Below, piece by piece: positions 1,039 to 56,829 of a stretch of DNA of 64,000 nt. How positions within the stretch are numbered: the first letter of the stretch is position 1; each line of letters begins with the position of its first letter. Under the pieces are notes generated by a model. The model was not told where the DNA came from and did not search any database. It saw only the letters and a list, made by a program, of their open reading frames with translations. This DNA is from an uncultured Gammaproteobacteria bacterium (GTDB lineage Bacteria; Pseudomonadota; Gammaproteobacteria; Arenicellales; JAANXG01): contig CAMYKK010000009.1 in assembly GCA_947258975.1 (NCBI GenBank), forward strand, positions 1 through 64,000, read 5' to 3'. The position numbers and the translations under genes were made by a program.

Positions 1039-1107
1039 GCCTTCGTACTGTTGTACCGGCTTCGAATGTGACAGGATGGTGCGTGGGAACACGCCGCGGC
1101 CGGCAAA

Positions 1108-1231
1108 GTGCGCCACGTCTTCCCGCCCCTATTCATATGTTAATCTCGGAGGCCCGAAGCGCATCGTCCTGGGAATGACCAACTATTATCCGTCACGGGG
1201 TCGGCCAAAAATAGGGGCGGGACCATCCCGG
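1108..1231. repeat. TIR element copy 1
   Basis: One of six related intergenic elements in this window. Its internal arms are perfect inverted repeats of 13 bases: TCCCGCCCCTATT at 1121-1133 and AATAGGGGCGGGA at 1210-1222. The right arm matches the best copy (11535-11663) at 20 of 24 positions. A palindromic TTGCGCTGCACGCAA follows at 1259-1273, like the one beside the best copy. It lies upstream of xseA. I see nothing else in 1039-1404. Confidence 0.65.
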
Positions 1232-1404
1232 CGCCGGCGCGGCCGCGAGCCGCTGACATTGCGCTGCACGCAACGGAAACACAGGACTCCGACTCAGGCA
1301 ATCCGAGCCCCCTTGTCATCGCTCCAGCGCGGCGTACAGCAGTGTGATCCGGTGGCCACGTTTCCGCACCTTCAGGCGCAATATACGCGATAGACGAAAG
1401 GCTG

Positions 1405-4549: not shown

Positions 4550-4909
4550 GATTCGCCGCCGTGCTCTGCATCTCTTCGCTCGCGGTTACATCGTGCGGGC
4601 ACGCGGACTGCGATGGTGAACTCGGATTCCACTTGCGTCGCCGCCGCGTCGGCGCTCACGGCCATCGAACAGACGGACGAATCCGTCTCCGATTCCCGAT
4701 CACATCTGTTCAACATAGTTTACCCATACACAAAGGATGTCCTTGCCTATCTTTAGACAGGGGCCTGTCTGATCGCGCGCGATTCTGCCAGTTTTGTATA
4801 AACCGAACAAGTCGCAAGACTGACGTCATTGTTTGAGAGTGGGACGTAACATTCGTGGATCCAGGCTGCACAGGTAAACGAGGCGGGTCGCCTCGGCGCA
4901 ACATAGGGG
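4550..4909. other. Gene-free gap with weak terminator of glpD
   Basis: No convincing coding frame. CGAGGCG at 4879-4885 pairs with CGCCTCG at 4889-4895 over three bases; read on the minus strand this hairpin lies just after the glpD stop and is followed by GTTTACC, a weak terminator. A second palindrome, AGACAGG at 4755-4761 and CCTGTCT at 4764-4770, could be an operator for the methyltransferase gene, but nothing identifies a regulator. Confidence 0.4.
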
Positions 4910-7730: not shown

Positions 7731-7905
7731 GGGAAATGATGAACAGAGAGCGGTCAGCCCGAATTTCGCCGCAAGGATCGCGGGTGATGGCGCAGGGACT
7801 TGCTCTGCACGCAGTCGCAGGGTCGGGCGGTTGCCACCGCAGGGGAGCGACATGTACAGCCGATGCTGGACGATGCGTGTCGCAGACGCCCAGATGTTGA
7901 AGGTC

Positions 7906-7990
7906 GCACCAACGCCGGGTTAGTCCCGCCGCTATTCTTGCTAAGAAGCCTGGAACGCCGAATATTCTCGTTGCCGGGACCAAGCGCTGT
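7906..7990. repeat. TIR element copy 2
   Basis: GCACCAA at 7906 and GTCCCGCCGCTATTCTTG further in align with the left arm of the best copy (26 of 38 positions over 7923-7960). The right part, GCCGGGACCAAGCGC at 7973-7987, is only partly recognisable. The element lies in the 531-base gap 7731-8261 between divergent genes. The rest of that gap shows no coding frame I can support; it must hold the promoters of both flanking genes. Confidence 0.5.
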
Positions 7991-8261
7991 AGGCATCTCC
8001 AATTTTGCACCATGAATAAGGGAGAGACGGCTTGGTGCATCACTCGAGCCACTATTGGTTGATGTGAGACGCTCGCCCAAGCAGCCTCGTTGTTTTAAAA
8101 TGATATCCAACGAATCCACACCCCTATATCCAGAAAACATGTTCGCCGCCAACAAGGTCGCCAGAACACCAAAACGCATCACACCGCATTGTACGGATGG
8201 AACACGCATACCACGCAGTTCTGACAGCGGGTGCCGTGTTCTACTCCAGGAATTCGCCTAG

Positions 8262-10189: not shown

Positions 10190-11506
10190 TCATTTGCGGT
10201 AGGGGTTTTTGGCGCCCCTCAACGCTATTTTCACGGGGGTTCCGGCCAGCTTAAAATGGCGGCGAATCCGTTTCGACAAATAACGCCGGTACGAATCGGG
10301 AATTTCTCCCGTCAAATTACCGTGTATTAACACCAGTGGTGGGTTCTTTCCCCCTTGGTGGGCGTATTTTAATTTAATCCTGCGATTTCTCACAATCGGT
10401 GGCGGCACCGACGTCGTCGCCTCATGCAGGATTCGATTAAGTTGCGGGGTGGGTAAACTCGCCATTGCCGAATCATACGCGGCACAGATCGCAGGCATGA
10501 CTGCACCGACCCCCCCTCCGTACTTGGCGGAAACGTACAGCGGCTCTATGACGTCCAGAAATGACAGTTTTCGCGTCACATCCAAACGCACCCGGCGGCG
10601 TTGCTCGGCATCCAGGTGGTCCCACTTATTGATCACCAATACCATTGAACGGCCGCTTGCCCAGACCAGACCCGCTAATCGGGCGTCCTGCTCGACAATA
10701 CCTTGTTGCGCATCCAACACCAACACCACGACATGTACCTGATCCAGTGTTCGCAGCGCCTTGATCGCGGAGAACTGTTCCACGCGCTCAATAATCCGCG
10801 ACCGGCGACGGAGACCAGCTGTGTCAACCAGCATGTACTCTCTGCCTGCGAACTGAAACGGCACCCTTACGCTGTCGCGGGTCGTACCCGGTTCATCGAA
10901 CACCACCAACCTTGTCTCACCTAACAACACATTGGCCAACGTCGACTTACCCACATTAGGCCGACCCATGATCGCGAAATGTGGAATTTCCGGAATCGCG
11001 TCGTCCGATCCGGTACCGGGAACCTGATCAATAATTGTGCCGACTAATTGTTTGACACCGGTCCCCTCTCGCGCGGAAATGGCGTATGGTTTTCCAAGAC
11101 CCAGAGAAAAGAACTCCGACGCCGCCAAGTCCATATCAATCCCTTCCGTTTTATTTACCGCAACGTACAGCGGCGTCTGTTGAATGCGAAGATGTGCGGC
11201 AATTTCCCGATCCGCCGCATTGGGACCGTCACGTCCATCGACCAGAAAAATAATTGCATCGGCCTCGGCCACTGCCAGATCGACCTGTTCCTGCAATAAA
11301 CGTTGTAGCGCATCGTCATCCGCAGTCATACCGCCGGTATCGATGACCCAATAATCTTGGTCCCCGGCCCTGCCGACGCCGATAAGCCGGTCCCGTGTGA
11401 CCCCCGGTTGGTCGTCAATCAAGGCATCACGGCTACGTGTTAATCGATTGTACAGCGTTGACTTGCCGACATTGGGTCGTCCAATAATGGCGATAACCGG
11501 TCTCAT
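10190..11506 (-). CDS. der: Ribosome biogenesis GTPase Der (EngA)
   Basis: An essential GTPase with two tandem G domains, acting in 50S ribosomal subunit maturation. 438 residues from the ATG at 11506. The first P-loop is GRPNVGKS near the N-terminus with VIDTGG as G3; the second is in HFAIMGRPNVGKSTLANVLL with LVDTAGLRRRSRI and VINKWD as G3 and G4. A KH-like C-terminal domain follows, ending GAKNPYRK. It is last in the hisS-yfgM-bamB-der order known from many gammaproteobacteria. The 240-base gap after bamB contains a repeat element, so der may have a separate promoter. Weak GGCGGCGA precedes the start. Confidence 0.96.
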   Translation of the reverse strand: MRPVIAIIGRPNVGKSTLYNRLTRSRDALIDDQPGVTRDRLIGVGRAGDQDYWVIDTGGMTADDDALQRLLQEQVDLAVAEADAIIFLVDGRDGPNAADREIAAHLRIQQTPLYVAVNKTEGIDMDLAASEFFSLGLGKPYAISAREGTGVKQLVGTIIDQVPGTGSDDAIPEIPHFAIMGRPNVGKSTLANVLLGETRLVVFDEPGTTRDSVRVPFQFAGREYMLVDTAGLRRRSRIIERVEQFSAIKALRTLDQVHVVVLVLDAQQGIVEQDARLAGLVWASGRSMVLVINKWDHLDAEQRRRVRLDVTRKLSFLDVIEPLYVSAKYGGGVGAVMPAICAAYDSAMASLPTPQLNRILHEATTSVPPPIVRNRRIKLKYAHQGGKNPPLVLIHGNLTGEIPDSYRRYLSKRIRRHFKLAGTPVKIALRGAKNPYRK

Positions 11507-11534
11507 GAATCGCCGCCGGAGCTGCTCCCGTATG

Positions 11535-11663
11535 TTGCACCAAGACGTCCCGCTTCCATTATTGCCAAACAATCTGGGAGGTCGAGTGTTGCCATATCAT
11601 AGAACAAGCGTTACGGGTTTTTCGGATGTCGACCAATAATAGAAGCGGGACCCCTTGGTGCAA
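11535..11663. repeat. TIR element, best-preserved copy (3)
   Basis: A 129-base element with 30-base inverted ends. The left arm runs 11535-11564, starting TTGCACCAAG and ending CATTATTG; the right arm runs 11634-11663. Comparing left arm with the reverse complement of the right gives 27 of 30 identical. A small palindrome, TTGCGTTTCACGCAA, lies just outside at 11673-11687. The element sits between bamB and der, 29 bases upstream of the der start codon. It has no coding capacity. Structure and size fit a non-autonomous transposable element (MITE) or a folded intergenic repeat. Confidence 0.8.
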
Positions 11664-11746
11664 GATTCAGGCTTGCGTTTCACGCAACAGAATCTGGGGT
11701 CCTGGCACCATATGCGGGCGAATAACGCGTGAGTCGAGTGGGAATT

Positions 11747-12898
11747 TTAGTTGTTTATGGTAAGAGAGGTTAAGGTCCCTCCCTGGGTCAACACCAGAAG
11801 TTGCGAACCTTGCGGGATCGGCGCACCGATAACTGCGCCATTTTTGAGTCTGGATCGCCCGACCATTTGCCCGTCTGATTTACGCAAAACGTGAAGGTAC
11901 CCCTCCTTATCGCCGACAAACACATGGCCTCCCATGGACGTCGGGGGGCTGAGCCGTCGTCGTTTCAAGCCCTCCTGCCTCCAAACTGTTTTGCCTGTCA
12001 GTCGGTCCAACGCGAAAACGGTATCCTGCTCGTCGGTTACGTAGATATTGGCATCGTCGACCGACAGGTCATTATAGGTCGACACATCACGCGCCCACAG
12101 AATCCGCCGGCTGCCCAAGGCCAGCGCAGTGACCCGGCCCTGATAAGCAGCGACATAAATCACACTGCCGGCCAACACCGGGCGCGCATCGATATCGACC
12201 AAACGTTCGACCTCGTTGCGGCCACGAGGTTGCGCCACATTTACGTCCCAGATGATGCGGCCGGTCGCCACTTCCGCGGCGACGATCTTGCCGCTGGCAA
12301 ACCCCAACACGACGACTTGCTTATACAGCGACGGCGTGCCGGCGCCACGCAGCGACAGACTCGGCACGGAGCGACGAAACGTCCACTGGGACGCCCCATC
12401 CACGGTCGACAGTCCATAGATACGCCCATCTCCAGCACGCGCCACAACGATGCCTTTCGACGTTACCGGCGGCGTCAAAACCTCACTGGAAACCCTGCTA
12501 TTCCATAGTTCATTGCCATCACGCGCGTCCAATGCGTGCACCACCCCCTTCGAGGTCCCGACCAGCACCAAACCATCTCCCGCACCAACGCCCCCGGAGA
12601 TCACGGCGTCCAACTTCTTCGCCCACCTGCGTTTTCCATCGGACAAACCGGCGGCGGTGATGCGACCCTCGGGGTCTGCCATATATACTTGCTCGGCATC
12701 GACAGTGGGCGTCAGGTGCCGACCCCCTTCGTCAAGGGCCGCGCCAATGTCGACAGACCAATCCCGATCCAGCGTTATTGACGTCTCGATTGCCGGTAAT
12801 GGCGCTGCTTGCGGTTCCTTGGCACCGCCTCCCCGCTTGAACACCGATCCACAAGCAACCAGCGATGCAAGCATCAACAGTATCATTACGCGTTTCAT
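11747..12898 (-). CDS. bamB: Outer membrane assembly lipoprotein BamB
   Basis: A periplasmic lipoprotein of the BAM complex, which inserts beta-barrel proteins in the outer membrane; BamB binds BamA. 383 residues with signal peptide MKRVMILLMLASLVAC ending in a lipobox (Cys16) and an eight-bladed propeller of PQQ-like repeats (DARDGNELWNSRV, DGASQWTFRRS, ATGRIIWDVNV, LTGKTVWRQEG). The start overlaps the stop of yfgM by ATGA, so translation is probably coupled. Confidence 0.95.
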   Translation of the reverse strand: MKRVMILLMLASLVACGSVFKRGGGAKEPQAAPLPAIETSITLDRDWSVDIGAALDEGGRHLTPTVDAEQVYMADPEGRITAAGLSDGKRRWAKKLDAVISGGVGAGDGLVLVGTSKGVVHALDARDGNELWNSRVSSEVLTPPVTSKGIVVARAGDGRIYGLSTVDGASQWTFRRSVPSLSLRGAGTPSLYKQVVVLGFASGKIVAAEVATGRIIWDVNVAQPRGRNEVERLVDIDARPVLAGSVIYVAAYQGRVTALALGSRRILWARDVSTYNDLSVDDANIYVTDEQDTVFALDRLTGKTVWRQEGLKRRRLSPPTSMGGHVFVGDKEGYLHVLRKSDGQMVGRSRLKNGAVIGAPIPQGSQLLVLTQGGTLTSLTINN

Positions 12899-14836: not shown

Positions 14837-15137
14837 CGGACTGTTAGCCAAACCTCCGGTTGAACCAGCGATTCGGGATGAAGTCGACGGGACCGGTCGG
14901 CTGGCCGATGCGCTGGGACCATGAAAAATCGGCGTTCGAGCATTTGACCGTCACGGCGTTTTTTCTGCTGAATGCAACGCAAGCACAAACATCGGACACC
15001 GATCCAGCGCCGGGATTGGCCTGAAGCCGAGGACCAGTCATGGTATCGCACATCCGCCGCGTGTTTCATGTCGAACTAGCGCCTAGATCCTCTTGTCGCT
15101 GCCGTGATGCACCACACACACTGACTGCTTACGATGC
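14837..15137. other. Gene-free gap where ispG is usually found
   Basis: This 301-base stretch separates rodZ from hisS. Frames are open in places but give no IspG-like peptide (no iron-sulfur cysteine motif such as ACPTC or CVVNGPGE) and no other recognisable protein. It presumably holds the promoter of hisS-yfgM-bamB, which I cannot place. Confidence 0.6.
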
Positions 15138-23469: not shown

Positions 23470-26046
23470 ATGTGCCCGGAACAGCAACACACGCCGATGA
23501 TGCAGCAATATCTGCAGATCAAGGCAAAGCATCCAGATAATATGCTGTTGTATCGCATGGGAGATTTTTACGAGCTGTTCTTCCATGACGCCGAACTCGC
23601 CGCCAAGCTCCTCGGTATCACGTTGACTCAACGTGGCAAATCAGCGGGCAAACCAATTCCCATGGCGGGAGTCCCGGTACACAGTGTCGATCAATACTTG
23701 GTCAAATTGATAAGACTGGGCCGTACAGTGGCGATTTGTGAACAGGTAGGAGTCCCCGATAAAACCAAAGGACCAGTCAAACGCGAAGTGGTGCGCGTCG
23801 TCACACCAGGTACGTTATCTGACGAGGCCCTGCTCGAGGACCGCCACGAAAATTTGTTGGCGGCGGTGTTCACACACGACTCCGGATGTGCCGTCGCAAC
23901 GTTAGAAATTTCGAGCGGTCGGTTCGAGGCACATGAGATCACGGATATCGAAACTCCCGCCGGCGACCTTGAACGTCTGAACCCGGCTGAGGTCATCATT
24001 GCCGAATCCAATGCCGACGCCTTACCCAAGTCCCCTGACTTTTTGGTGCGGATCGTGCCGGACTGGTATTTTGATCTCGATCTGGCCACCCGCTTGCTCA
24101 CGGCGCAATTCAGCACCAAAGACCTGGCATCGTTCGGGGCGGACGGCCATCCAAGTGCGGTGATCGCGGCAGGTGCAGTGCTACAATACGCAAAGGATGC
24201 GGAGTACTCATCGCTGCCTCATGTGTTGGACTTCCGAATCGAACGCACGAGTGAACATATATTGATCGATTCGACTAGCCGTAGGAATCTGGAGATCGAA
24301 ACCAACCTGCTAGGCGGTCGGGACAACACATTGATATCCCTAATAGACCACTGCGCCACGCCGATGGGTGCACGGCTATTACGACGCTGGCTTCACCAGC
24401 CACTACGCGATCAACCGCGCGTCAAGCAACGATTACATGCCGTCGCATGTTTGTTGGAGGACCGTAGTTCCCAGTTACGTATGCTGCTCACTGAGGCGGG
24501 GGATATGGAACGCATCCTGGCCCGCATTGCGTTGCTTAGCGCGCGGCCCGGAGATCTAGTGCGATTACGCCTGGCATTGGCAGCGCTTCCATCGATCATC
24601 GAGATCGCTCGTGGCTATGATTCCGCGATGATCCGCGACATCCGCGATGCGCTGGGCCCGTTCCCGGATACCCACACCCTGCTAAAGCGCGCCATCCGCG
24701 AACAACCAGCATCCATCATACGCGATGGCGGCGTAATTCGTTCCGGCTACGATCCGCAGTTGGACGAACTGCAACAATTGAGTCGAGACACCAGTGAATA
24801 TTTGATGCGGCTGGAAAAACGTGAACGGGACGAAACCGGCATCAATAATTTACGTGTGCAATATAATCGAGTTCACGGCTTTTACATCGAAATCACCAAG
24901 TCACAAACTGATGCCGCACCGGAACATTATATTCGCCGTCAAACATTGAAGAACGCCGAACGCTATATCACAGCCGAATTAAAACAATTTGAAGACAAAG
25001 TCTTGAGCGCCAAGGAAAAGGCATTGTCACGGGAAAAATGGCTTTACCAGAACCTCCTCGAACGGCTGGCAAGTGAGTTGGTGCCGTTGCAATCTTGCGC
25101 GCGCGCCTTATCTAGACTCGACGTGCTCGACAATTTTGCCGAACGCGCCACCGCTTTAAATCTCTCCTCGCCCGTACTGGCAAACGAGCCCGGTCTCAAC
25201 GTCACCGCAGGACGACATCTTATTGTAGAGCAGAATCAGAGCCATCCGTTCGTCGCCAACGACATCTCCCTGCACGACACACAAAGAATGTTGATCATCA
25301 CGGGCCCGAATATGGGCGGAAAAAGCACTTACATGAGGCAAACGGCATTGATAACGATCATGGCTTACTGCGGGAGTTATGTGCCTGCCGACCGAGCCGT
25401 TATAGGCCCCGTCGACCAGGTCTTTACCCGCATTGGCGCCTCCGACGATCTCGCCGGTGGCCGTTCTACATTCATGGTCGAGATGACGGAAATGGCGCGA
25501 ATCCTGCGCCAAGCAACTGACAACAGCTTGGTGCTCGTTGATGAGATCGGCCGCGGCACCAGCACCTTCGACGGCCTTTCCCTCGCCTGGGCGTGTGCTG
25601 TCGATTTGGCGCAACGGGTGCGGGCTTTTACCCTGTATTCCACGCATTACTTTGAAGTCACCCAGCTCGCCGACCGACTCACCGCCGTCAACAACATCCA
25701 TCTTGATGCCGTGGAGCACCGGGAACAGGTCGTATTTCTTTACTCGGTAAAGCCGGGGCCGACGAATCAATCCTACGGGATTCAAGTGGCTCGGCTTGCC
25801 GGCGTCCCACACGACGTGCTTACCGTTGCGCGGGATAAATTAACGGAACTGGAAATTCATTATCGCGACCTTGCCCCTGAACGCGACTCGATGCACGCAT
25901 CTCAGCTTGGTATTTTCGACAAATCAGTGGCACCGGTACATCCGGTGACGGAGAAGTTACGCGCTGTCAAAGTCGACGAATTGACGCCGCGGCAAGCATT
26001 AGACCTGTTGTATGAATTGACCGATTCACTACGCGCGGACAGTTGA
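23470..26046 (+). CDS. mutS: DNA mismatch repair protein MutS
   Basis: Recognises base mismatches and recruits MutL. 858 residues, normal length. The mismatch-reading Phe33-x-Glu35 is in MGDFYELF. Connector, core and clamp domains follow, then the ATPase with Walker [10 protein letters not shown] (about 611-619), YVPADRA and Walker [17 protein letters not shown]. The C-terminus ([16 protein letters not shown]) is the tetramerisation tail. The ATG at 23470 is chosen because upstream residues overlap suhB in another frame and do not fit the family; there is no strong ribosome site, consistent with coupling to suhB. Confidence 0.96.
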
Positions 26047-26054
26047 CCCGAATG

Positions 26055-26180
26055 TTGCACCAAGGCACCCCGCCTCAATACCTGCCCACCAGCCTGAAGA
26101 ATCGAATGGCGCCAATTCCTGGGCAACACGCTGCGGGTCTTTCCGGTGCGGACCGTGAATCTAGGCGGGACCATCCGGGC
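26055..26180. repeat. TIR element copy 4
   Basis: Begins TTGCACCAAG nine bases after the mutS stop; the left arm matches the best copy at 24 of 32 positions. The right arm around 26157-26172 (AATCTAGGCGGGACC) shares the GCGGGACC core. It fills most of the space between mutS and the convergent gene ending at 26233. Confidence 0.6.
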
Positions 26181-26232
26181 CCTGGCTCGGTCGCGAACGC
26201 CTGTACTTGCGCTTCACTCCACCCATAGCCTG

Positions 26233-27924
26233 CTACGGGTTTCGTTCCAGCGCGGCGTTCCTACCAACCGACTCTGCGGCTACACGAAGTGCGGCTCCCT
26301 TCGCCGTCATGCGGGATCCTTCGTGCAGCATACGGGCTGAGTCGCCTCGACGCAGTTGATGACATAGGGTGCTCATCCTGCGCGCGTCGTCGTGAATCAC
26401 CCAGGGTGATACACCAGCCGCTGCCGCTCCAGCGGCACATTCTGCAGCCGCCGGGTCATCGGGTGGCACACGCCTCCCGGTCGGCAACGCGACATAACGA
26501 ATACCATGGTGGCGCAGAAACCCGCCGGGAAAGGACCAGCTGGAAAGCAGGTTCGAGTACACATCTGCGGTGCGTTGCTGGAAGTCCGAAACCAGCAACC
26601 GGCACTCGGCGGGAACGGGGCGTGGGGCACCCTGCTCCATGATGTGCACCACGCGTACGGCGTAGCCATCCTTGTCGATCCCGCGGGTGCGCCAATAGTC
26701 GTCGATTCCACCCACCAGAGCCAAGTCGGACCGTTGCGCTTGCACCCTCATGCCAGCATCAAAACGGGTGACTGGTACCAGCGCTACCAGGGTCAGCGTG
26801 ACAACGATCCAGCTGACCGCCGCCGTCCGAGTCCAAGTGCCGCGATCTCTATCCGCCAACAGGACAACAAAGGCTAAACACGCGCCTACCAGTACCGGCC
26901 CGGCCACGCGCCAACCGGACGGTGTGACATTCAGCACCAGCAGAAATCCTGCGGCGCATCCGGTAAGTACACCCGGGAGCACGAGCGCAAGCAGCAGGCG
27001 TGGCCAGTTCCATCCTTTCACAACACCGAGGACAACGGAAAGGACGCCTAGAATTAAGTAAGGCCCCTCCCATTTGGAAAACGCAAGCTCGCGGCCAAGA
27101 TAATAGCCCAGCGCGGGCTGTGTGACATTGGCGAGCATGTTGCTTACCCCATGCCATTTTTCCGCGAGATGAGTGGGATCGAAAATTGACGCAGCTGATG
27201 ACAAACCACGCCCCGCGAACGTGGACACCTGGAGTACCTGAGTGGTGAATAGCATGAAGACCGCGTAGATCCCGATCGACGCGACAACCGGGACCCCGCG
27301 TAGATAAAGTTCCCGGCGTGACATCGAGTCATATTGCAGGTAACGAACGCTCCAGTTTGCGATGAACAACATGACTGGAACGGTCGCATATATCTGGTAA
27401 CCGGCGATCCCGAGTGCCATGAGCAGCGCACCGAGCACCCCCCGGGAACGACCGGGTCGATCCCGCACCAGCCGATAACCCAAAAGCTGCAAGGCGAGGC
27501 CACCGCTGACGGTAAAGATCGAATTCCACAGCGTGATCCCGTTGGCGATGGGGTGAATAACGAGCATCAGGGACAGGCCGAGCGCACCGACGGCGCCGAT
27601 CCCCCAGTCCCTTAGCAGTCCGTAAAACAACCACGCCGCCAGCGACGCGTACAATCCGGCGATCCACTTGGGGACGACGGTCAGCAACAGGTCCGGTCCG
27701 ATCAGTGATTGCCACAGGGTCATATCCACGAGGAAAAGCAAGCGATGTGTGACAATGTTTCCAGTCTGACCGAGGACGAAATCGTCGCGCATGAGCACGT
27801 TCTCGGCGACGGCGTCATGGCGCACCCACCACCAGCACAACCACAACGCCGCAAAGATCAGACTACCGGTAAGTAGCCGCCCCACGCGGCCGGGGCCCCG
27901 GTTATGGCACCCCCCCTCCCCCAT
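26233..27924 (-). CDS. Polytopic membrane protein, GtrII-like glucosyltransferase family
   Basis: About 563 residues from the ATG at 27924 (a GTG at 27996 is also possible). Ten or so hydrophobic segments, for example LTGSLIFAALWLCWWW, AGLYASLAAWLFYGLL, VGALGLSLMLVIH and LLLALVLPGVLTG. An early acidic loop, RDDF in VLMRDDFVLGQTGN, precedes the second helix, and a non-membrane C-terminal part follows. This resembles GtrII-type glucosyltransferases, which decorate O-antigen from a lipid-linked glucose donor; the assignment is tentative and no gtrA/gtrB partner is near. The region looks richer in GC than its surroundings. The last 40 residues are unconvincing and may be read-through into intergenic sequence. 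Confidence 0.65.
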   Translation of the reverse strand: MGEGGCHNRGPGRVGRLLTGSLIFAALWLCWWWVRHDAVAENVLMRDDFVLGQTGNIVTHRLLFLVDMTLWQSLIGPDLLLTVVPKWIAGLYASLAAWLFYGLLRDWGIGAVGALGLSLMLVIHPIANGITLWNSIFTVSGGLALQLLGYRLVRDRPGRSRGVLGALLMALGIAGYQIYATVPVMLFIANWSVRYLQYDSMSRRELYLRGVPVVASIGIYAVFMLFTTQVLQVSTFAGRGLSSAASIFDPTHLAEKWHGVSNMLANVTQPALGYYLGRELAFSKWEGPYLILGVLSVVLGVVKGWNWPRLLLALVLPGVLTGCAAGFLLVLNVTPSGWRVAGPVLVGACLAFVVLLADRDRGTWTRTAAVSWIVVTLTLVALVPVTRFDAGMRVQAQRSDLALVGGIDDYWRTRGIDKDGYAVRVVHIMEQGAPRPVPAECRLLVSDFQQRTADVYSNLLSSWSFPGGFLRHHGIRYVALPTGRRVPPDDPAAAECAAGAAAAGVSPWVIHDDARRMSTLCHQLRRGDSARMLHEGSRMTAKGAALRVAAESVGRNAALERNP

Positions 27925-28315
27925 CGTGTCGCGTCGTCTACGCGACGGCTGGCGGATTCCGGGAACGCCCGGACCTGAGCCGCTACACAGACTCACGTCG
28001 CAACACGCGACTGCCGGCGACGGGATCGACCATCTTCACGATTCGCAAGCCGCAATCGGTGCCGGACTCAGGATCGCGCGCACGTCGAGGTCTGTTCGAA
28101 CAAGGGATGGCAAACGCTTTGTGCTGCAACGCTATGAGATGACTGCTACGATCGGTTGGTGGTGATGATCCCCCCCTGCGGGACTGAGATCAAGCCATTT
28201 TGCGTCTATCCCGGATACTGCACCAAGGATTCCGGAAGCTGGCGAACGGACTTGCGCTGCGCGTAGTCCCAGGTTCAAGCGACTGAACGCCGCGCTGGTG
28301 AAATCTTCGGGTCAA
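27925..28315. other. Gene-free gap with possible half repeat
   Basis: About 390 bases without a gene I can support. TGCACCAAGG at 28217-28226 equals the outer end of the TIR elements, and TTGCGCTGCGCGTAG follows about 26 bases later, similar to the palindrome beside copies 1 and 3. Arms are incomplete, so this is at most a fragment. Confidence 0.35.
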
Positions 28316-31077: not shown

Positions 31078-31281
31078 CGATCTACCTCCACCCGTTAACC
31101 AACGAAACGCTGCGATCATAACAGCGTCCGCGCTTCGTCCAAAGGCCGTTGAGCGGCTGCTCTACGCAACCGTGGTGGACCAAGCCACCGTCCCCCCCGC
31201 CTTACCTGCCGAGCAGGCATCTAACCCGCATGGTGCGCCAAGGATCACGGAGTCAGGACCGGGGTCGTCCCGCACCGCTGC

Positions 31282-31383
31282 GTGCCAAGCAACAAAAGGC
31301 ATCGAATGCCTCTATTTCCTCGCGCAAAGGCTGGGGGTCTCACCAGTGTATACCCATACATAGGGGCGCCGCGCCGTGGTGCA
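31282..31383. repeat. TIR element copy 5, weak
   Basis: The left part (GTGCCAAGC at 31282, then CCTCTATTTCCTCGCG and CTGGGGGTCTC) and the right part (ACATAGGGGCGCC ... GTGGTGCA ending at 31382) follow the order and sense of the best copy but are more diverged. It lies in the 413-base gap 31078-31490, which otherwise holds no gene. GCGCCAAGGATCACGG at 31232 is another partial end. TATACT at 31425-31430 could be the -10 of the transglycosylase gene, but no good -35 is seen. Confidence 0.4.
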
Positions 31384-31490
31384 CTATCGGCGCTAACTGT
31401 CTCCCCATGCGGCGTTTTTGCGGTTATACTTATTCTCAATACCAGCTACAACAAAGGTTTTAATATCAATGACTTTCGCTTGTTTCCGTG

Positions 31491-33571: not shown

Positions 33572-33632
33572 ACGGCCGCTAGCCCGGATATGGCGCCAAG
33601 GATTCTGGTTGACGGCGACGGGGACGGGACGG

Positions 33633-33742
33633 CCCCACCCTTATTGTTGCCAAGATACCTGGAGGGTCGTTTTTAGTCATTTCTAAAACGCGTAGCTGCG
33701 GTCGTTTCCTATGCGCTATACGAATAGGAGCGGGGCGCCTGG
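33633..33742. repeat. TIR element copy 6
   Basis: The left arm, 33633-33669, aligns with 11548-11584 at 25 of 37 positions, mostly transitions, including the shared TTGCCAAGATACCTGG region. The right arm GAATAGGAGCGGGG at 33722-33735 pairs imperfectly with it. Upstream GCGCCAAGGATTCTGG at 33591 may be the outer end. It sits between nusB and thiL. Confidence 0.65.
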
Positions 33743-33756
33743 AAGCCCAATACGGG

Positions 33757-34236
33757 TTAATCTTTGAGTGCGGTCCCGGGTTCGTTCAACGCCTCCGTTG
33801 TTAACCCGGAGGGGCTTTGCTCCGGCCTTGGCCGTAGTCTTTCTGCTAACTTATCGAGTACACCATTTACGAATTTATAAGCGTATTCAGCGCTAAAAGT
33901 CTTCGCCAGCTCAACGGCTTCGTTGATGATGACTTTTGTCGGAATATCGTGTTGATACTCCAATTCGTAAGCGCCGATACGCAAGATGACGCGTTCGACC
34001 GGATCGACACTAGCGAATTCGCGATCAAGACAAGGCTGCAGATTTGCCACGATTTCCTGCCGGTACAGCGGAACGTCACGAACCAAGGTATGAAAATAAG
34101 CTCGATCGATACCTTCCAAGTCGTGCTGCTGAATGAAGTGCGCTTCAATGTCGTCAGGGTCTTGCTCGGTCAGGTCCCACTGGTAGAGCGCTTGTACTGC
34201 CGCCTGTCGCGCCGCATGTCGGCTACCGCCTGCCAT
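33757..34236 (-). CDS. nusB: Transcription antitermination factor NusB
   Basis: With NusE binds boxA RNA and promotes antitermination on rRNA operons. 159 residues, all helical: ARQAAVQALYQWDLTEQDPD at the N-terminus, then LRIGAYELEYQHDIPTKVII and NEAVELAKTFS, and FVNGVLDKLA. The start ATG has GGAGGA upstream. It follows ribH, the classical arrangement; its partner SuhB is also encoded in this window. Confidence 0.95.
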   Translation of the reverse strand: MAGGSRHAARQAAVQALYQWDLTEQDPDDIEAHFIQQHDLEGIDRAYFHTLVRDVPLYRQEIVANLQPCLDREFASVDPVERVILRIGAYELEYQHDIPTKVIINEAVELAKTFSAEYAYKFVNGVLDKLAERLRPRPEQSPSGLTTEALNEPGTALKD

Positions 34237-55974: not shown

Positions 55975-56829
55975 GCCCTCGACGCCTGGTGAGAAATGCG
56001 GATTATTAATTTTTGCGATGACGACGCAATGATCGGACAGCTGGACGCCGTGGCAATTGAAATTCGGCCGCACACAGACCCATTTCCCGTGCATTGAAGC
56101 GCGAGGGCGGGCGTGCAAGACCGAGCCAGAGGGTCGATGCCGTGGTGCGAAATGATGTTCAACACCTAACAGTCCCCAGCAACACCAGGGTTCACCGTCC
56201 GTGGTTCACCCTGGTCCCATCCTTGGTAAAAGCGGCGATCCCTGCCGCCGGCCTCCAAGCATTCGTGGCTTACATTACTGATTTCAAGGACCGATTTCTT
56301 CACCCATATGAGTGATTTTGAGAAATATTTCGATGCAGCGGAATGTCAGCCCCCACGCCGCAGTGCGGCGATAAAAATCGCCGACACCATGGCTGAAACA
56401 ACCCGTGCGATAACGGTTCCGTGGCTCCGGCCCCCATGTTCATCGGCCCGGCACGACATCCCCACGTTAGCCGAATGGCACTTACTTAAGGGACCACGAC
56501 ACGCTGAACCGAGTGACCATTCCCGGGACACGCCGTCAATACCTCCATGTAGGCTCGGCGCCAGCATCCTTGCTGGCGACGGTCCCGGAAATTCTCCCTC
56601 AATTCAGCACTTTTTAGTGGACTGCCCCTAATCGCAGGGTCGGGCGGCTGAATGCAGCGCGTTCGCGATCGCGCCAGTTGGGTTAGCCCGTAATACTCAC
56701 CATTGTCCGCACCGGTTGTTCAATGTGCGGGGAGGCGGCAACCCTATGCAAAAGAGACGCAGCTGATCTTGGATGGGGCGCCCGCAGGGCAGATCGAAGA
56801 CTGAATCGATGCGAAACATTGAAACGATA
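55975..56829. other. Gene-poor stretch with hairpin
   Basis: 855 bases with no supported gene. CGCCAGCA at 56559-56566 pairs perfectly with TGCTGGCG at 56571-56578 over TCCT. The flank CTCCATGTAGGCTCG reminds me of a short repeat common in other gammaproteobacteria, but only one copy is here. TTTTTAGTGGACTGCCCC at 56612 looks like an IS end without its IS. An open frame starting at 56308 (MSDFEKYFDAAECQPP) has no ribosome site and no coding character. Confidence 0.4.

Follow-up and report, generated by a model that had tools for sequence, protein, structure and literature searches.

The spacer between bamB and der in the 64,000-nt stretch of an uncultured gammaproteobacterial genome analyzed here (the window) carries two long inverted ends, and related sequences recur between other genes of the same stretch. 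What is this element, what moves it, and does its fold matter? The original prediction offered two descriptions, an ageing MITE family or a folded RNA or DNA element. The window copies are decayed members of a non-autonomous DNA transposon (MITE) family that extends across the Gammaproteobacteria and that, in the window's own bacterial family, is probably moved in trans by an IS1380-family transposase. In kind the element is an ordinary MITE; what is unusual is its breadth, its structural constraint, the exchange of its arms and its missing mobiliser.

The inverted ends at 11,535–11,663 agree at 27 of 30 positions on recount, as first described, and the repeat reaches further, to 38 nt with 84% complementarity (11,527–11,564 with 11,634–11,671). 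The 129-bp unit first taken for the whole element is instead a single hairpin arm together with an end sequence. The full copy occupies 11,527–11,718 on the forward strand. It consists of the left inverted end with the left side of the A-arm stem (11,527–11,564), the right side of that stem with an end-like sequence, CCTTGGTGCAA (11,634–11,671), and, by comparison with the consensus, an eroded B arm (CTTGCGTTTCACGCAAC) with the outer right inverted end (11,672–11,718), whose remnant reads CACCATATGCGGG. Its neighbors lie on the reverse strand, with the start of der at 11,506 and the stop of bamB at 11,747. Relatives preserve both states of this site. In one genome (G002, locus L126) it is empty and reads ATCTTTAATCTCCGG, while in another (G005, L125) an intact insertion lies between TTAG and TTAG, reading ATCGTTAG / CCCGTATATTGC..ATGCGGG / TTAG / GCTCCGG. 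It is scarcely credible that such sequences are immobile regulatory palindromes or terminators of the host that recur through their usefulness. Their intergenic position and stable hairpins close to stop codons would suit that role, but they come and go at orthologous sites such as the empty bamB–der site, are bounded by target duplications, occur in scattered families only and have a stem with no T-run behind it.

A full-length consensus of ~269 nt emerges from profile searches iterated over the window and about 400 kb of its genome; full-length elements span about 240–300 bp. The consensus runs from a left end (CCCGnATATTGCACCAAGG) through a left arm that varies and a right arm (B) that is conserved to the inverted right end. 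Two kinds of left arm occur, type A (CGCCCCGCCCCTATTC..GAATAGGGGCGGGA) and type 2 (GGCGGCGAAAAG..TTTGT..), whereas the B arm begins with CTATCCCGG and ends with CCGGGAT. Shortened forms keep a single arm only. The inverted ends, ~20 bp long, start with CCCGnAT and read CCCGnATATTGCACCAAGG; a second subfamily has CCCGnATTTCTCACCAGG instead. The element carries no conserved gene, its longest open reading frame ranging from 16 to 83 aa across 25 elements with no shared length.

Iterative nhmmer searches identify all five of the further places in the window as family members, so that six copies stand; their boundaries had been drawn too narrowly. Copies 1 (1,100–1,390, forward strand, model positions 3–269, ends decayed), 2 (7,758–8,048, reverse strand, positions 5–268) and 4 (26,047–26,336, forward strand) are full-length elements with both A and B arms, the last matching the B-arm covariance model R1 at 50.6 bits (E 5.6e-10). 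Copies 5 (31,225–31,392) and 6 (33,583–33,756) are A-arm elements on the reverse strand. Copy 5 lies between direct CTAA repeats at 31,221–31,224 and 31,393–31,396, and copy 6 between CTAG and TTAA. The palindrome TTGCG..CACGCAA, reported to follow copies 1 and 3, is there, and it belongs to the element, being what is left of the second arm (CTTGCGCTTCACTCAA). Decayed pieces extend the list: a short remnant that keeps both outer ends (28,210–28,311, reverse strand; CTAT followed by CCCGGATACTGCACC .. TTCGGG), two B-arm halves on the reverse strand (14,860–15,021, E 5e-21, model positions 123–258; 56,017–56,131, E 8e-11) and a degenerate remnant at about 4,845–4,905 that the first list lacked. 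A 587-aa open frame on the reverse strand (26,233–27,996), with no Pfam match, enters copy 4 with its 3' end.

Genome-wide, the family stands far above its control: in its own genome (5.49 Mb), ATTGCACCAAGG occurs 146 times with at most one mismatch, against 13 for the reversed control, and R1 matches 58 B arms. Same-genus relatives hold 20–140 R1 matches per genome, and the family's other genera 0–70; the relatives that public records name are MAGs of uncultured Gammaproteobacteria (FCS_M_Gamma_073/074). Across the class, 39 of the 369 Gammaproteobacteria genomes sampled, in 33 of 272 genera, have R1 matches (E <= 1e-4), and blastn recovers B arms at 72–81% identity in other families, together with whole elements and ends. 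In a complete 3.0-Mb genome from one such family (G162), end sequences number 393, with 0 in the control; its copies, about 200, have perfect target duplications and are mostly 80–96% identical (loci L246–L254 and L280–L319). These end counts, together with the empty site, rule out chance palindromes. Comparable bacterial repeats are for the most part known from a single genus. An ageing MITE family is the right description for the window's genome, and the analysis found target duplications, a vacant site and transposases whose ends match; ageing does not hold everywhere, since relatives and unrelated genomes carry copies ~88–97% identical with intact duplications. In three contigs of G002 (C205, C345 and C350), the end sequences all lie at position 102–121 from the contig ends, a constant distance that suggests assembly breaks within repeated elements.

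The search for a described counterpart, in Rfam, in plasmid, phage and viral collections and in the searchable literature, returned none, in agreement with the original prediction. Rfam 15 gave no match, either for the window at gathering thresholds or for 14 loci at E <= 5, and the plasmid, phage and viral collections yielded no carriage of the element. One locus, L034 (16,261–16,521, reverse strand), gave a weak match to the Rfam family asponA at 32 bits, far below gathering, and is possibly antisense to a ponA-like gene.

How the element inserts is recorded in its flanks. CTAG..CTAG brackets many copies, and the target duplication is a direct 4-bp YTAR, mostly CTAG. Because CTAG is palindromic, the informative cases for a direct duplication are the others: TTAG..TTAG, CTAA..CTAA, CTAT..CTAT and CAAG..CAAG all occur, and in G162 10 of 15 non-CTAG flank pairs are identical. 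These duplications, with the empty and filled states of the bamB–der site, establish target duplication and bear on a REPIN-like element, for which a RAYT (HUH) transposase would mobilise single-stranded DNA and recognize the tetranucleotide CTAG. A tetranucleotide beside folded inverted ends, an intergenic location and many copies are all in keeping with such an element, as is the likeness of REPINs and BIMEs (PMC3116915), which are also short, folded, mobile and have coordinated end variants. It would require insertion without duplication, however, and is contradicted by the direct non-palindromic duplications and the empty and filled site; a 4-bp duplication and IS1380-like ends set the element apart, making this explanation very improbable.

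Which enzyme, then, recognizes these ends? A best-match scan for ends, which could have missed some, was applied to 30 DDE transposase loci in ten genomes. Three of the 30 have element-like ends in the right orientation, 1.62–1.75 kb apart, and all three belong to the IS1380 family (NF033539, E about 1e-120; loci L178 in the own genome, L183 and L163; the other genomes are G001 and G006). The own-genome insertion sequence reads CCTGGATTTCTCACCG..CGGTGAGAAATCCAGG between CTAG and CTAG, and its ends match those of the MITE inexactly, at 13 of 15 positions; the right end of the G006 insertion sequence agrees with element L099 of the own genome at 15 of 15 positions. Both MITE end variants, TATTGCACC and TTTCTCACC, have an IS1380 counterpart. 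The likeness is confined to the outer ~14–16 bp. Since matching ends and CTAG-type flanks occur together in this genome and its relatives, IS1380-family insertion sequences are, on this sequence evidence, the likely mobilisers of the element in the window's bacterial family. In work on piggyBac, which targets TTAA and often has ends that start with CCC, IS1380 is taken as the prokaryotic outgroup (PMC10813416), and YTAR with CCCG ends fits that pattern; target length differs within IS1380, being 5 bp for IS1247 (PMC3281130). With this element, the bacterial transposons of piggyBac type (IS1380) gain a large set of candidate passengers.

The mobiliser could instead be an IS5-type or unrecognized enzyme, the IS1380-like ends reflecting shared ancestry or coincidence. 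IS5-type transposases also favor YTAR, and genomes with many young copies lack IS1380: its transposase was not detectable in 14 of 15 other-family genomes that carry the element, G162 included. The 13 PF01609 transposase loci of G162 showed no matching ends in the scan, which could have missed them; a partner transposase of this genome would be predicted to have CCCGGATATTGCACC ends. A larger autonomous copy suspected there, from an end pair 1.67 kb apart (1,018,225–1,019,890), turned out to be two decayed elements around host genes. Against another mobiliser, each end variant has its IS1380 counterpart and all three insertion sequences matched in ends, orientation, spacing and flanks in the window's family are IS1380, so that a different enzyme seems rather unlikely. 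The element shares with IS1380 insertion sequences, bacterial piggyBac relatives, the ends CC(C/T)GnAT(A/T)T..CAC and the short CTAG/TTAG-type duplication, yet it has no transposase, only its outer 14–16 bp are common to both, and several genomes hold it without the insertion sequence. Also weighing against the IS1380 reading is the class-wide conservation of the structured interior, which one would not look for in a simple deletion derivative.

The structure of that interior was derived from 25 full-length elements, drawn from the window's family and about ten other families. They share a 22-bp terminal stem, a left arm and, on the right, a long hairpin; the terminal inverted repeats measure 20–22 bp, with 92% of their cells paired. 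The RNAalifold score is −144.9, against a mean of −24 for column shuffles. Of the cells, 89.4% pair, against 77.8% when shuffled and at most 38% when slid, and 45 of 67 pairs change on both sides, with 173 double-change cells against 42.8; these shuffles ignore kinship. Because the structure came from the same 25 sequences, it was tested again on 33 sequences outside the model, aligned without structure and found through the model or its first searches, a mild bias. There, 84% of cells are paired against 64.6%, 38 of 42 pairs show two-sided change, and double-change cells number 280 against 86.6, again with shuffles that ignore kinship. The A arm shows compensatory pairing likewise. The arms thus covary, which makes "folded RNA/DNA element" right as a description. 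An old question can now be tested, namely whether the folding of MITEs is a by-product of inverted ends or is itself selected: here is a family found in many Gammaproteobacteria families, at ~200 copies in a 3-Mb genome, with its fold kept through compensatory mutation.

The compensatory changes may reflect a folded RNA, a folded DNA or repair templated by the hairpin. Such constraint invites a view of the element as, above all, a mobile gene for a structured RNA, its arms transcribed as non-coding RNA for host or element and its ends merely spreading that gene. Covariation across many genera speaks for it, as do the conserved unpaired stretches CTTCACTCAA, TTTCGCTCCA, TTTGT and GCCTATCC. Among 15 closely similar copies in G162, paired sites show private changes at half the rate of unpaired sites (12 against 26 per 1000, from small numbers), and RNAalifold is lower for the reverse strand (−164 against −145). 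The strand of a putative RNA, as read from G.U against A.C cells, is contradictory, 34 to 61 in one count and 81 to 48 in the other. This inconsistency weighs against an RNA gene, as do the absence of one arm from many copies, the lack of an Rfam match and the wholesale replacement of an A arm at an orthologous site, and we consider the RNA gene unlikely.

That replacement also bears on how a MITE could keep its fold. One insertion, orthologous between G005 (L066) and G002 (L090), has flanks with 95% and 91% identity and a B arm with 97.9%, yet its A arm is just 58.9% identical, and each version is properly paired. At another (L067/L080), the A arm is 94.3% identical. A divergent A arm amid near-identical B arm and flanks indicates that whole arms are replaceable, like cassettes, at L066/L090 probably via conversion from another copy. 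In the window's family, an IS1380-family DDE transposase would act in trans on the ends and insert the element at YTAR. In the least certain steps of the scheme, a folded form, whether extruded or single-stranded DNA or a transcript, would help propagation, so that the fold is kept, and whole-arm exchange among copies might contribute to its maintenance. Tentatively, and as a possibility short of an expectation, these elements could be a class-wide set of mobile structured nucleic acids: two-armed folded RNAs or single-stranded DNAs selected for shape, carried by IS1380 (piggyBac-like) ends from one YTAR site to another, with exchangeable arms, and able to multiply even where the genome has lost the transposase.

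Known bacterial MITEs (reviewed in PMC10969869; Coxiella QMITEs, PMC5896051) are likewise short, geneless, multi-copy, intergenic and folded, with inverted ends and target duplication. The present element differs in that its interior pairing covaries class-wide and its hairpin arms are exchangeable; the review mentions neither IS1380 nor covariation. Enterobacteria harbor a further parallel. ERIC, or IRU, sequences are widespread, folded, MITE-like intergenic repeats of ~127 bp whose structure is said to be conserved. Compared by length, duplication and number of arms, ERIC has a TA duplication and one arm, in contrast to 240–300 bp, a 4-bp duplication and two arms here.

The target motif also shows how insertions can survive at gene ends. 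Whichever strand is read, the duplicated YTAR supplies a stop codon, TAA or TAG; an insertion exactly at a gene end would therefore leave the gene intact, and copies that land at stop codons or between convergent genes could persist. In the window, the TTGA flank of copy 4 includes the stop codon of mutS, whose reading frame ends at 26,046, and the TTAA flank of copy 6 includes that of nusB (33,757–34,236, reverse strand). Among 139 element sides in mixed loci, 41 have a YTAR that coincides exactly with the stop of an open frame at least 90 codons long, compared with 8.4% of the control YTAR sites, a 3.5-fold excess; in G162 the figures are 27 of 100 against 18.4%, or 1.5-fold. A special preference for stop codons was rejected, given the modest enrichment in G162 and the gene interiors among the control sites. 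With intragenic sites in the controls, survival of harmless insertions, as selection removes those inside genes, may be enough to explain the excess. At five loci (L144, L145, L188, L200 and L206), the element lies between convergent genes that both stop in the duplicated CTAG or TTAG.
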